Of a stretch of 64,000 nt of DNA, positions 53,302 through 63,289 are shown piece after piece. The DNA comes from Geomonas sp. RF6 (lineage in GTDB: Bacteria > Desulfobacterota > Desulfuromonadia > Geobacterales > Geobacteraceae), in NCBI RefSeq assembly GCF_021044625.1, contig NZ_CP087999.1:3803001-3867000 (forward strand), given 5' to 3'. A model generated the notes under the pieces. The model saw nothing but the letters and a program-made list of their open reading frames with translations, was not told the origin of the DNA and ran no database searches. The position numbers and the translations under genes are program-made. The first letter of the stretch is position 1; each line of letters starts with the position of its first letter.

Positions 53302-53795
53302 GTGCGCCCGGCAGGGCGCGTGGCGCGCACGCGCCATCCTGTCAGCCGTGGTGGCGGACAGGTGACTTGGAGGTGAAAGTCCTCTACGGACCCTGATGGT
53401 GGGAACCGTTAGCCGAACGGCAAGGGTGTCCGGGGCGACCCGGAATCTGCAGGAAGCAGGCAAAGCCCCGGCCTGACGAACAGGAATCGCATACGAGGCA
53501 GTCGCATCTGGGCGAGAAGGCAATGATCTTCGAAGCCCGATAACCATCCGGGAAGATACGGCTGTATATTCGGCGGGTATATGGGGTGAAGGTCGCGCGC
53601 ATTACCCGGGGAGGTCTGCCGTCCCGCACTAGGCGAAATCCCGGAGCAGGGCGACCTGGAGACAGGTTGCCCCATGTTCGGCAGAAGTCAGCAGAGGCCA
53701 TATGAGCCGGAGTAACCAACCGGCAAAGGGCTGAACACGTTGGAACGGACAGAGCCTGGAGTTTCGATGACGCGAAGGAGGGCAAAAGCCTCGGT
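53302..53795 (+). mobile_element. Group II intron remnant, 5' part only
   Basis: It begins GTGCGCCCGG, the usual group II 5' consensus, and continues with about 490 nt of GC-rich, paired sequence without long frames, as in domain I-IV RNA. The last 60 nt could be the first codons of the intron-encoded protein. It starts three bases after the T run of a terminator hairpin, the preferred target of class IIC introns. The 3' part, including reverse transcriptase and domains V-VI, is missing; an IS30 remnant follows. Confidence 0.6.
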
Positions 53796-53808: not shown

Positions 53809-54237
53809 TCAAGTTGTAAGTGCACCACGCACTGATGTTCGCAGAACTTCGGCAGGCGTCCGGTAGGCGAGGCACTTTCTAGGTCGTTCGTTCACCTGTC
53901 TGACGATCAGGTCCAGTTCTTCGTCTGAGACCTTCCGGAAGTCGAACCCTTTCGGAAAGTACTGTCTCAAGATCCCGTTGGTATTTTCGTTGGTGCCCCG
54001 CTGCCAGGCAGCGTAAGGATCTGCAAAATACACGGTCAAACCTGTCTTGGCTTCCAGTTCTTTGAATTGCGAGAATTCGCTGCCGTTATCCACGGTTAGG
54101 GTCTGGCGAAGTCTGCGAGGAAGGCGCTGGAAGGATCTGGCACTTTCCTCCGTCATCGTCGCAGCCTTTCTGTCTGCGAGCCTCGCAGCCACTAAAAAAC
54201 GCGTTTTCCGCTCGACGTATGTAGCAGGTGGATTCTA
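53809..54237 (-). pseudogene. IS30-family transposase, C-terminal remnant
   Basis: On the minus strand the frame is open from an in-frame TAG at about 54,238 to the stop at 53,809. It shows the IS30 DDE core end: ATYVERKTRFLVAARLADRK, LTVDNGSEFSQFKELE, VYFADPYAAWQRGTNENTNG, and QVNERPRKCLAYRTPAEVL. About 140 residues remain of the usual 320-380, with helix-turn-helix and first catalytic Asp gone, so it is inactive. The remnant is bracketed by 12-bp direct repeats (TAAGTGCACCAC at 53,817 and 54,242). Confidence 0.85.
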
Positions 54238-56772: not shown

Positions 56773-56824
56773 AACCTTATAATTCAAGACCTGACCCCGG
56801 GGTCAGGTCTTGAATTATAAGGTT
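56773..56824. repeat. Perfect 52-bp palindrome
   Basis: Left arm 56,773-56,798 and right arm 56,799-56,824 are exact inverses without a spacer. The centre is GACCCCGGGGTC; the arms contain TTATAATTCAAGACCTGACC. It shares the AGACCTGACCCC core with 54,257-54,336. Confidence 0.95.
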
Positions 56825-56999: not shown

Positions 57000-59249
57000 T
57001 TATTCCGGCCGACATTGTTCCCTTCTCTTGAGGACGGGGCACTGCCCGATGAATTCGGTGCGCTGCTGGGGGGAACGGAATTTCAGCGGCTCCATCATCA
57101 GTCCCACCTGCTCCGCAAAGCTTACTGCGCCTGCAAAGATGGCCGCTACGGAGCCGTCGTCAGCGCTCTCGGTCTCCGGTTTGTACACTGTCGTCTTTCC
57201 GCTCTGCTTCCCATGCAGCGCCACGTATATCCGCACTCCACTTCCCTCCTTCACGGAGCAGATGAATCCCTGGCAGCTTTCCTGTCCCTTGCCGTCCGGC
57301 GCGATGCTGGCGAAGTTGGTGGAGCGGTGCACCTCGACCACGTCGTCTGGTGCCTCGTACTCGATTGCTGTACGGCCCCGCTCCAGGAGGAAGAGTACAG
57401 GCGCTCCTCCCTCTTCGGAAAAGGAGGGGAAAAAGGAGCCGCCATCCGGTGCGGAGAAGTCGGCGGCCTCGGGGGGGAGCAGCACGGGCATGGCGGGCAT
57501 CGCGGAGAGCCATTCACCAGCTCCCGCCGGCTCGACGAATGCGTGGTAGCGATCACCGCCCCCTGCCGCTTCGGTTGCAGACGCCTCTTCCTTGCCGAGT
57601 ATGCCGGATGGACTCTCCGGCGGCGCAGTCGCTGCACCTTGCTGCCGCTGCATCTGGTCGAGGAGCCGTTGTGACTCTTCAAGCTCTGCCTCGATCTTTT
57701 CCAGGCGCTGCGACCGCTCGGCGGCGGCCTCGTGCAGCGTCTCCTGTCCCGCGCGAAGCGCCGCGATCTCCACACGCAGCGCTTCCAGTTCGGCGTCTTT
57801 GGCTGAGGCCTCTTCCTGGAGCTTCCGGAGTCGCGACAGCGCTGCGGCACGTTCTTTGGTTAACGCCGCCACTGTCTCCCGCAGGGTATCGGTTCCGGCA
57901 CTGGCCGTTTCCTTCTCTGCTGTGATCTCCGTTGCTCTCTTCACTGCGGCATCGCGCTCGACGGCGAGATCCGCAGCTTCCTGCTTCGCGGTTGCTGCAG
58001 CGCTCGCCAGCGCCGCGTTCTCCTGCTCGAGCTCCTTGTTACGCCGCTCCGTCTCGTCACGCTCCGTGCGGAGAAGGGCGGCCTCTTCCTGCAGGACCGT
58101 CAGCTCTGATGAAGTGCCTTCAAAGTGGAGCACCGACTGAGCCAGCTTGTCCCTTTCCTCTGTCAGGGCCTTCCTTTCGCGTTCCGCCTTTTCGAGCTCC
58201 GCCGCCATGTGCGCCTGGCCTGCCGATACTTCCTGCACCTTTGCCGATAGAGCTTGGTTCTCCGCCGTCACGGCCTCGAGCGAATCTCGCAGGTCCGATA
58301 TGAGTTTCGCCGTTGCCCCTTCCTGCTCCACGCGGTGCCGTGTTTCCTCGACGAATGCCTTGTTGCAGCGGTCGGCATCGACGCGCTGCCGGGCAAGAAG
58401 AGCGGCCTCTTCGCGTAGTGCCGTCGTCTCAGCGGAAACCTCTTCGAGACGCTGCGCCAGCTTCTCCCTTTCCGCCGCCAGTTGAAGGTTTGCCGCCTGC
58501 GCGCTGGTGAGCTCCGCGGCTGAGGTCTGCTGAAGTGCGGAGAGGTTATGCACCTGCGCCGACAGGTCATCCCTCTCCGAGCCCACTTTCTCCAGTTCCT
58601 TTCTGAGTTCCTCCAGGGCCTGCGCCGACCTCTCCTGCTCGGATTCCTTCTTTTCTTCGGCGAGAAGTGCGAGCGTTGCTACCGTTGCCAGCGTTTCCAC
58701 GGCTGCAGCCGCTGCACCGGCGGCAACCGGGGCAATGGCTGCGACCGCTCCCGCGGGTACCGGTGCCGCAGATGGCGGAGATATCGGTGCCGATTGTGGT
58801 GCTGGTGGGACGACTTCTGAGATATCCTGGGGCGAGGCGTATGGGGCGTCCTTCACCCGCTCGTTCTTCGCGAAAGTCCGCGGTGGAGTGAATATCTTCA
58901 GCCCCTGCAGCACGACCTCCCGCAGCGCGGGGCTGTAGTCGAGATTGACGGGCTCCAGCGCAAATCCCATCGACCGGGCAAATCCGATCCCTTCCTCCAC
59001 AGATTCGCCGTAGTTCTTCACGCTTTCATTCGCGCCGGTCCTGGTGTAGATGACGCTCTCACCATGCCGGGAGGTGAACGCAACATACACCTGCACTTTC
59101 GTCTTCTTCTTTACCGCGCAGACGTACGCGGTCCTCTTCTCCGGCTTCGAGCCGTTCAGGGAGACGGAGAGAGGGTCCGATTGAAAGATCTCCAGTACAT
59201 CCGACTCCGCTTCTTCTATCCACTTCAGTGCGGTATTCAGCGCAAACAT
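57000..59249 (-). CDS. Large coiled-coil protein with duplicated end domains, under riboswitch control
   Basis: 749 aa from ATG 59,249 with AGGGA upstream. Residues about 35-115 (AYVCAVKKKTKVQVYVAFTS ... EEGIGFARSMGFALEPVNLD) and about 640-735 (GFICSVKEGSGVRIYVALHG ... AGAVSFAEQVGLMMEPLKFR) are copies of one domain of unknown type. Between them lie a Pro/Ala-rich linker (150-190) and about 330 residues of coiled coil (200-560, many EE/RR heptads). No signal peptide or membrane segment. It may be a cytoplasmic scaffold or filament. A GEMM-I riboswitch with terminator lies in its leader, so a cyclic dinucleotide should control its expression. Confidence 0.7.
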   Translation of the reverse strand: MFALNTALKWIEEAESDVLEIFQSDPLSVSLNGSKPEKRTAYVCAVKKKTKVQVYVAFTSRHGESVIYTRTGANESVKNYGESVEEGIGFARSMGFALEPVNLDYSPALREVVLQGLKIFTPPRTFAKNERVKDAPYASPQDISEVVPPAPQSAPISPPSAAPVPAGAVAAIAPVAAGAAAAAVETLATVATLALLAEEKKESEQERSAQALEELRKELEKVGSERDDLSAQVHNLSALQQTSAAELTSAQAANLQLAAEREKLAQRLEEVSAETTALREEAALLARQRVDADRCNKAFVEETRHRVEQEGATAKLISDLRDSLEAVTAENQALSAKVQEVSAGQAHMAAELEKAERERKALTEERDKLAQSVLHFEGTSSELTVLQEEAALLRTERDETERRNKELEQENAALASAAATAKQEAADLAVERDAAVKRATEITAEKETASAGTDTLRETVAALTKERAAALSRLRKLQEEASAKDAELEALRVEIAALRAGQETLHEAAAERSQRLEKIEAELEESQRLLDQMQRQQGAATAPPESPSGILGKEEASATEAAGGGDRYHAFVEPAGAGEWLSAMPAMPVLLPPEAADFSAPDGGSFFPSFSEEGGAPVLFLLERGRTAIEYEAPDDVVEVHRSTNFASIAPDGKGQESCQGFICSVKEGSGVRIYVALHGKQSGKTTVYKPETESADDGSVAAIFAGAVSFAEQVGLMMEPLKFRSPQQRTEFIGQCPVLKRREQCRPE

Positions 59250-59291: not shown

Positions 59292-59333
59292 AAAAAAACC
59301 GGGTTGCCGCAAATGATATTTCGGCAACCCGGC
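59292..59333 (-). terminator. Riboswitch expression platform: terminator in the leader of the coiled-coil gene
   Basis: Minus strand GCCGGGTTGCCG ... CGGCAACCCGG followed by TTTTTTT (59,298-59,292). Its 5' arm is the 3' part of the GEMM aptamer, so aptamer folding and termination exclude each other. Confidence 0.88.
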
Positions 59334-59398
59334 TGTCTGACGTGAGACCCGTGGGCTTTCCGCCCCACCCTCGCGGATGGTTTAGTATTGTCGTGTAT
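59322..59398 (-). promoter_or_regulatory. GEMM-I type cyclic dinucleotide riboswitch, copy 1
   Basis: Minus strand: ACCATCCGCGAGGGTGGGGC, then GGAAAGCC, a variable hairpin, GACAGCCGGGTTGCCGA. This is the GEMM-I pattern with a GNRA-type tetraloop and tetraloop receptor. The aptamer's 3' strand is the 5' arm of the terminator. In Geobacter many GEMM-I RNAs respond to 3',3'-cGAMP rather than c-di-GMP; the base before the junction appears to be A rather than G, which favours cGAMP, but this is an alignment by eye. Confidence 0.82.
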
Positions 59399-59701: not shown

Positions 59702-60535
59702 GTGGAGATGAACAACCTGGCAAATCCGAAAGTTTCCCTCCTCTACGTCGAAGATGATCAGACGACGCAGGAAGTCGTGAGCGACGCCATTCGCAGGAGC
59801 TTTCCCACTCTGGACGTTCTTGTCGGGAAAACGGGGGAAGAGGGGCTTGAGCTTTTCGAGAGGCACCGTCCACAGATCGTCATCACCGACATCATGGTGC
59901 CGGGGATGAACGGGATGGAGATGGCAAAGCATGTGCGCGCCGAAAGCTCCACCGTGCTTATTATCGCCGCCACTGCCTACAACAATTCGGAATTCCTGCT
60001 CGACGCCATCAAGGTCGGTGTGACCCATTTTCTGCTCAAGCCGCTGGATCTCAACTCCCTGCTTCAGGCGGTACGCGAGTCCATTTCCAGGGTCGAGTTG
60101 GAGTGGGAGATGAAGGTGGAAAAGGAGCTTTTCTGGAAGCTGTCGCACGTTGTACAGCAGAGTCCCAGCAGCGTCATTGTCGCCAACGCGCGCGGCACCA
60201 TCGAATACGTGAACAGCAGGTTTGCGAGCGACAGCGGTTTTGCCGCGGAGGATATTCTCGGGCAGAGCCTGCGCCTCATCTTTTCCGAGGCGCGCCCCTT
60301 CGACAATTACGAGATTATCTGGAGCACCTTGAGACGCGGTCTGCACTGGCGTGGGCAGGTGCTGCGGCGCAGAAAGAACGGCGAGTTCCTCTTTCAGGAT
60401 GTCTGCATTTTCCCCCTTTCAGGTGACGGCGGCCTGATCACCCACTATGTAGCGGTGCTGGATGATGTCGCCAATCGTGCGGAAAGCAAGAGGGTCTGCC
60501 CGGTGAACACCTCGGCAAATGGCGCAGGAGCCTAG
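59702..60535 (+). CDS. Response regulator with REC and PAS domains, no output enzyme
   Basis: 277 aa from GTG 59,702 with AGGAG 6 bases upstream (an ATG at 59,708 is possible). REC domain 10-130: LLYVEDDQTT acidic pair, phospho-acceptor Asp63 in ITDIMVPG, Thr in AATAYNN, Lys in FLLKPLD. A linker helix leads to a PAS domain at about 145-260 (SSVIVANARGTIEYVNSRFA, GQVLRRRKNGEFLFQDVCIF). No kinase, GGDEF, EAL or DNA-binding domain follows, so it probably acts through protein contact. The kinase partner is not nearby. Confidence 0.88.
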   Translation: MEMNNLANPKVSLLYVEDDQTTQEVVSDAIRRSFPTLDVLVGKTGEEGLELFERHRPQIVITDIMVPGMNGMEMAKHVRAESSTVLIIAATAYNNSEFLLDAIKVGVTHFLLKPLDLNSLLQAVRESISRVELEWEMKVEKELFWKLSHVVQQSPSSVIVANARGTIEYVNSRFASDSGFAAEDILGQSLRLIFSEARPFDNYEIIWSTLRRGLHWRGQVLRRRKNGEFLFQDVCIFPLSGDGGLITHYVAVLDDVANRAESKRVCPVNTSANGAGA

Positions 60536-62689: not shown

Positions 62690-62775
62690 GATAGACGATA
62701 ATACTCAACCATCCGCGAGGGTGGGGCGGAAAGCCTATTGGGTCTCTCTGAGACAGCCGGGTTGCCGAAATATCA
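62690..62775 (+). promoter_or_regulatory. GEMM-I type cyclic dinucleotide riboswitch, copy 2
   Basis: AACCATCCGCGAGGGTGGGG, CGGAAAGCC, variable hairpin GGGTCTCTCTGAGAC, then AGCCGGGTTGCCGAAATATC. The core is nearly identical to copy 1 at 59,322-59,398 (same GCGA tetraloop and receptor sequences), while the variable hairpin differs. Confidence 0.85.
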
Positions 62776-62869: not shown

Positions 62870-63289
62870 ATGAGATTCGGAAAGATTGAAGATGCCTTCT
62901 ATTTCGTAAGCAGCGCCGCTCCCGGCGATCACGTTGCCGTGCTGAACCGCAAAACCGGCGAGCTCTTTTTCGGCTCCGACCTTGCCGGACACGACCACCT
63001 GCCGGATGACCTGGACCGCAACGAGGACGACTACCTGGAGATACCGCACAAGAATGACCTTTGTCTCGGCATCGCCGTCGTCACCGACTTTGTCCGTACC
63101 CGCTGCACAGAGCATATGGACACCGTACGCGGTATCTTCTCGCGTCCGGGCGCCTACAGCCGCTACAAGTCGTTTCTTTCCGAGGTGGGGCTTCTGCAGG
63201 AATGGTACTGCTTCGAGATGGACCGGCTCGGGGAGTCGCTCCTTTCGTGGTGCAGGGAAAGCGGGGTGGACCTTGAAGATCGTTCCTGA
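62870..63289 (+). CDS. UPF0158 family protein under riboswitch control
   Basis: 139 aa. It matches the UPF0158 pattern: FFGSDLAGHDHLPDD, YLEIPHKNDLCLG, DTVRGIFSRPGAYSRYKSFL, GLLQEWYCFEMDRLGESLLS, and a final WCRESGVDL. Small cytoplasmic protein of unknown function. The leader holds a GEMM-I riboswitch with terminator and its own promoter; the gene seems to be alone in its transcript. AGAAGGG lies 6 bases before the ATG. Confidence 0.85.
   Translation: MRFGKIEDAFYFVSSAAPGDHVAVLNRKTGELFFGSDLAGHDHLPDDLDRNEDDYLEIPHKNDLCLGIAVVTDFVRTRCTEHMDTVRGIFSRPGAYSRYKSFLSEVGLLQEWYCFEMDRLGESLLSWCRESGVDLEDRS

Follow-up and report, generated by a model that had tools for sequence, protein, structure and literature searches.

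The closest described relatives of the element analysed here are GEMM-Ib riboswitches of Geobacter species. The pilM riboswitch of G. metallireducens is described as a transcriptional ON switch that drives a pilus gene cluster and whose terminator sequesters C75, the pairing partner of the ligand (PMC9262584). For the G. sulfurreducens pgcA gene (GSU1761), which encodes an extracellular cytochrome, ligand binding by the riboswitch has been measured and anti-termination by cGAMP has been inferred; the same paper reports that deletion of gacA lowers pgcA expression and that cGAMP promotes growth of this organism on extracellular metal (PMC6456294). An uncharacterised target is in itself nothing new, since 'hypothetical' genes with GEMM-I elements have been described for G. 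sulfurreducens (PMC6456294, PMC10599522); one of them, GSU1018 (KN400_1038), encodes a 'hypothetical protein', and its riboswitch was mutated in electrode-evolved strains (PMC10599522, PMC13194489).

We analysed a window of 64,000 nucleotides from Geomonas sp. RF6 (positions 3,803,001 to 3,867,000 of contig NZ_CP087999.1) in which a GEMM-I element precedes a single gene for an unnamed, predicted rod protein. As in the pilM riboswitch, a cGAMP-type aptamer is excluded by a terminator that takes the ligand-pairing C, and the ON logic published for pilM would apply here as well; the pilM element, however, drives a pilus gene cluster rather than a lone gene. The likeness extends to the pgcA riboswitch, although its target is a cytochrome and its ligand binding a measurement, whereas here the target is a rod protein and the ligand is predicted from sequence. 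GSU1018 resembles our gene in being an uncharacterised Geobacter gene under a GEMM-I element, and it may be an ortholog of the rod protein. A published G. sulfurreducens primer stretch gave no match in eight genomes of one genus (g11) or in 48 genomes of the family. Our literature search, whose scope lay outside the two 2015 lists of GEMM-I targets (Kellenberger, Nelson), found no description of the rod-protein family or its history. The best joint explanation of the results, with a probability of about 0.75, is that a Geobacterales family of rod proteins, which carry the same domain at both ends, is controlled at the level of transcription by a GEMM-Ib riboswitch that senses 3',3'-cGAMP. The anatomy and conservation of this system and the homology of its domains were established by computation.

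The aptamer (59396-59320, minus strand) matches the Rfam GEMM-I (c-di-GMP-I) model RF01051 with 51.1 bits against a gathering score of 35 (E 4.8e-7, reckoned for 64 kb, both strands and 4227 families), and it is a new member of this known class, with a cGAMP-type (GEMM-Ib) pocket. The c-di-GMP-I-GGC model (RF03167) scores 55.0 bits on the same element, which is under its own cut-off of 59. Its P2 hairpin is capped by a GCGA tetraloop of the GNRA kind, in CCGCGAGG; a GNRA tetraloop closing P2 is typical of the GEMM-I class. An intrinsic terminator hairpin follows at 59332-59299 (minus strand; 11-nt arms at 59332-59322 and 59309-59299, 12-nt loop, -24.2 kcal/mol), with a run of seven T at 59298-59292 directly after it. 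The first terminator arm is part of the aptamer and includes C 59324, the counterpart of the ligand-pairing C, so the aptamer and terminator folds are mutually exclusive. RNA 59400-59286 folds at -46.4 kcal/mol (z -3.82; none of 200 shuffles was as low), and its minimum-energy fold is the terminator form. The riboswitch and terminator recognised in the sequence-only reading are thus both present, and its expectation that ligand binding should permit read-through, drawn from the strand that aptamer and terminator share, agrees with the placement of the arm within the aptamer and with the ON logic published for pilM (PMC9262584). The hairpin at 59332-59299 is absent from the list of a simple terminator scan because its 12-nt loop exceeds the 3-8 nt that the scan allows. 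Upstream, the pair TTGCAT-16 nt-TATATT (59447-59420, minus strand) was picked out by eye as a possible weak promoter, only a suggestion, and is not in the list of a promoter scan; downstream, a Shine-Dalgarno-like AGGGAG (59259-59254, minus strand) lies ahead of the ATG at 59249.

By analogy with pilM, the window riboswitch would work as an ON switch. When no ligand is present, the 3' strand of the aptamer would pair with the downstream arm and transcription would end; with cGAMP bound, the aptamer would keep its 3' strand, the terminator would be blocked and the gene would be transcribed. Both the ON direction and the identity of the ligand are predicted from the sequence together with published relatives.

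The specificity position of the aptamer, which contacts the ligand and corresponds to A14 of 4YAZ and G20 of Vc2, is A (window 59386) in place of G, as in GEMM-Ib elements. When the numbering is aligned (our own alignment), the J1/2 residues given as ligand contacts in 4YAZ, a crystal structure of the cGAMP riboswitch, namely G8, A9, A11, A12, A14 and C15 (PMC6274999), are all matched in the window aptamer, by G, A, A, A and C at 59392, 59391, 59389, 59388 and 59385 and by the A at 59386. The genome holds 27 GEMM-I elements over the cut-off, 22 with an AATACT-type J1/2 like that of the window element and five that differ. (Four GEMM-I elements stand in a row within about 660 bases, G000:C1:3033428-3034088, ahead of a 177-aa ORF; these are L010, L014, L015 and L019.) A occupies the specificity position in all 41 of the GEMM-I elements found upstream of rod-protein genes at Geobacterales loci (below).

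The genome also has 31 matches to the GGDEF domain; 28 of these stretches were fetched and the motif could be read in 24, in which the putatively Hypr-defining site is Asp in 22, Thr in one and Ser in one. The Ser-type domain (L128, G000:C1:3561235-3561708) has as its top PDB match 6d9m, at 210 bits versus 119 for the next best, with the Ser aligned. PMC6456294 gives 6D9M as a Hypr GGDEF structure and PMC8835794 terms the serine Hypr-defining, and we infer that the aligned Ser is this residue and that the host encodes a predicted Hypr-type GGDEF cyclase. A GGDEF protein encoded at G000:C1:1470200-1470900 (L130) has Thr where Hypr enzymes have Ser. Since the pocket has an A and the host has a Hypr-type GGDEF gene, cGAMP is the likelier ligand than c-di-GMP. 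The opposite case, in which the cellular ligand of the RNA is c-di-GMP, alone or along with cGAMP, and the gene is part of c-di-GMP signalling, we consider unlikely. The matching family model is indeed c-di-GMP-I, the GEMM-Ib RNA of omcST is reported to respond to both ligands (PMC6456294), and most of the readable host GGDEF domains have the ordinary Asp; against this stand the invariant A at the specificity position, the Hypr-type gene, and the related pgcA riboswitch, for which a roughly 1200-fold selectivity for cGAMP is quoted (PMC6456294). One study of G. metallireducens reports that some of the predicted cGAMP targets went up at low cGAMP (PMC12285248).

The gene that would be controlled by cGAMP occupies 59249-57000 on the minus strand, an open frame of 749 codons from the ATG at 59249, and its product has an end domain at each terminus and a helical middle. 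The N-terminal domain (residues 1-132 used here; 59249-58854) and the C-terminal domain (residues 610-744; 57422-57018) both give alpha+beta models, with pLDDT 84.5 and 89.4, respectively. When profiles made from alignments of 42 sequences (N) and 38 sequences (C) are compared, hhalign finds the two ends homologous (probability 99.9%, E 8.7e-35), which bears out the earlier claim that the end domains of the 749-aa protein are duplicates. The middle (residues 201-560; 58649-57570) is about 71% helix formers with 3% Pro+Gly and is predicted to be a helical rod or coiled coil, which has matches to coiled-coil families below their cut-offs. The sequence-only reading had called it a coiled coil; the helix-rich, Pro- and Gly-poor composition agrees with this, but the heptad signal (z 2.3-2.4 versus shuffles) gives only moderate support. 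In 41 relatives the heptad z, taken over about 480 aa, runs from -1.2 to 6.4, and with values down to -1.2 some members may be single helices and not coiled coils.

Pfam and NCBIfam searches of the whole protein returned only coil-type matches, all under the cut-off; in a Pfam search of 38 C-domain members no family matched more than two (best E 0.024), and the N-domain profile searched by sequence against PDB chains gave a best E of 0.17. The top structural match of both heads is the WGR domain of PARP (N head: Z 6.1, rmsd 3.8, 90 residues aligned; C head: Z 5.0, rmsd 4.1, 92 aligned); these Z scores are too low to use for assigning the heads to that fold, as a Z below 8 may reflect a mere common arrangement. 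This match bears on the idea, which we think quite unlikely, that the protein binds nucleic acid or is an SMC-like chromosome organiser and not an envelope or surface tether: WGR is a DNA-binding domain and the rod matches SMC and Rad50 models weakly, but those matches are far under the curated cut-offs and typical of coiled coils, and Foldseek found nothing for the N head in the PDB at E <= 0.001. No signal peptide is evident by eye in the window protein, and its Ala-rich stretch, where hydropathy rises to 1.91 at residue 166, was counted against a tether. One relative (G005) apparently has the C-type domain only. Just 3' of the rod gene is a 20-bp perfect-looking palindrome (56775-56822), and a similar stretch, perhaps a dispersed repeat, lies 3' of another GEMM-I element (L006). 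Farther along are group II intron pieces at 53429-53731 on the plus strand (D1D4-3, 126.7 bits; D1D4-1, 54 bits) and, by eye, a transposase-like ORF at 53809-54192 on the minus strand.

The pairing of riboswitch and rod gene recurs across the Geobacterales. Homologs of the rod protein are present in 43 of 58 relatives, its own genome counted. Forty-five regions were fetched as a first set, two of them 3' fragments, leaving 43 loci with a 5' end; a search with covariance model R1 detects a same-strand GEMM-I element upstream of the gene in 25 of these, and its distance from the start, where the element can be placed, is mostly about 50-290 nt. R1 was built from 38 elements, 11 of which are themselves upstream elements of the rod gene and so match the model by construction, and the Rfam model alone had already detected 11 of the 25. 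A wider profile search found the end domain in 62 of 141 Geobacterales genomes, and a second set of 18 further loci (5' regions) yielded upstream GEMM-I elements in 15; three genomes whose domain matches are fragments only (G018, G090 and G120) were left out of the locus counts. With the window included, 41 of the 62 Geobacterales loci with a 5' end (41 of 59 genomes) have an upstream GEMM-I element, versus none of 30 PfkB loci from the same relatives (117,568 bases) that served as the control. The sequence-only reading had expected a new kind of target; this recurrence speaks against an odd single case.

The overlapping terminator is also conserved. A T-run hairpin that begins inside the aptamer accompanies 37 of the 41 upstream elements, all except those at L092, L146, L154 and L155, where none was detected; an overlapping terminator of -14 kcal/mol or lower is found in 36 of 41, versus 36 of 410 when the downstream sequence is shuffled. 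The element is missing at 21 of the 62 loci, including those of every sampled member of four genera (g9, g10, g19 and g22), so the pairing is not obligatory. A tree of the end domain (42 rows; G005 and the four-copy G006 gene were left out) implies at least five gains or losses of the element (bootstrap range 4-6), and the element is found in both main branches, so either it is old and was lost several times or it was gained repeatedly. The rod gene is present in one of six genomes with three or fewer GEMM-I elements versus 42 of 52 with more, a correlation on which we do not rely, since most of the six are closely related. No conserved gene neighbours were found across the 45 Geobacterales loci; the commonest, an ABC-type ATPase family, is near 14 of them. 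In the window a REC-PAS protein gene (59702-60535, plus strand) is divergent from the riboswitch gene, and members of the REC-PAS cluster are near the rod gene in four of 45 relative loci, which may reflect only a common domain.

A second cGAMP-type GEMM-I aptamer lies in the window at 62693-62769 on the plus strand (RF01051, 41.8 bits) with its own overlapping terminator (-16.4 kcal/mol), ahead of a 139-aa UPF0158-like gene at 62870-63289 on the same strand (Pfam 20.9 bits, cut-off 21.1). Relatives of the UPF0158-like protein occur in nine of 58 genomes, its own included, and a scan of the eight other loci found no GEMM-I nearby, so this is not a conserved pairing. That the element of the rod gene is itself a decayed or non-functional copy, one among the 27 of its genome, is very improbable: GEMM-I elements are abundant (at least one in 57 of 58 relatives) and chance pairings are possible, as the second window element illustrates, but at 41 of the 62 loci the gene has stayed with its aptamer and overlapping terminator, although N-domain identity has fallen to 25-41%. 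It had also been supposed that GEMM-I targets are mainly surface electron-transfer genes, and this does not describe the present genome, in which the first or second ORFs downstream of the other elements, picked mechanically, hold at most one CXXCH; their Pfam matches include fn3/Ig-like, L,D-transpeptidase, beta-barrel, NiFe hydrogenase small subunit, REC-PilZ and histidine kinase families.

The end domain also occurs outside the Geobacterales. Of 395 genomes drawn from the phylum, 23 match the N-domain profile, five of them Geobacterales and 18 from elsewhere. In the latter (loci L158-L175; other Desulfobacterota-type genomes) the same domain as in the heads of the window protein is encoded once, in frames of 164-358 aa (E 2.3e-7 to 6.0e-19 with profile A2), and no GEMM-I element is near any of the 18, whereas the window protein has two copies flanking a rod. 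All 18 regions have at least one of MTAP/PNP-type, PfkB, TPR and RodZ genes nearby. The domain gene was kept by ORF picking in 13 of them, in 12 of which it adjoins the TPR gene and in one the PfkB gene. The TPR protein is closest to the PilW and Tgl models, under both cut-offs, and by eye resembles an exported lipoprotein (LGGC box).

The PfkB survey within the Geobacterales took 30 loci and left out 28 further relatives with PfkB. PfkB and TPR are adjacent there without the domain in 25 of the 30 (64-306 nt between the matches), and four more have no TPR in reach and no domain; the genome of the window itself showed no single-domain copy when its PfkB-TPR site was searched for one. At the remaining locus, in G006 (L078, G006:C195:16500-24500), a 755-aa protein with four copies of the end domain sits in place within an MTAP-PfkB-TPR-RodZ cluster. 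In a tree of the domains all N heads form one group (support 96/93) and all C heads another (97/87); copy 2 of the G006 protein joins the N heads (91/85), and copies 3 and 4 join the C heads (82/71), though not firmly, and long branches were flagged. The ancestor of the end domain was probably encoded by a single-copy gene of an MTAP-PfkB-[domain]-TPR(PilW/Tgl-like)-RodZ cluster. The simplest history would be duplication within the operon, followed by relocation, an inserted rod now separating the copies: in the Geobacterales the domain would have been duplicated, left the cluster, gained the helical rod and, in most lineages, come under a cGAMP switch.

As to function, our guess, offered tentatively, is that the rod protein serves as a tether or spacer, with partners of one kind bound at its two heads, and that it is made in the cGAMP-high state. 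The genes of the original operon are suggestive of machinery for pili or cell shape, and the more specific proposal, a little more tentative again, is that cGAMP turns on a two-headed rod that ties together copies of an envelope or pilus-assembly component by means of heads taken from a small protein of the PfkB/PilW-Tgl-like TPR-RodZ cluster. The TPR neighbour is seemingly exported, so its direct contact with a cytoplasmic head is doubtful.

Signalling by cGAMP in Geobacter is known through cell-surface targets and several unnamed genes. With the present analysis, one of the unnamed targets becomes a defined protein family whose parts have names, whose switch is conserved at 41 of 62 loci and whose origin can be traced to the neighbourhood of PilW/Tgl-like and RodZ genes. 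Deletion in laboratory strains could now probe its function, which opens a route to the question of what is built in the cell by a surface-linked second messenger. If the proposed function is true, the surface-contact signal would build a scaffold inside the cell as well as exported cytochromes and pili.
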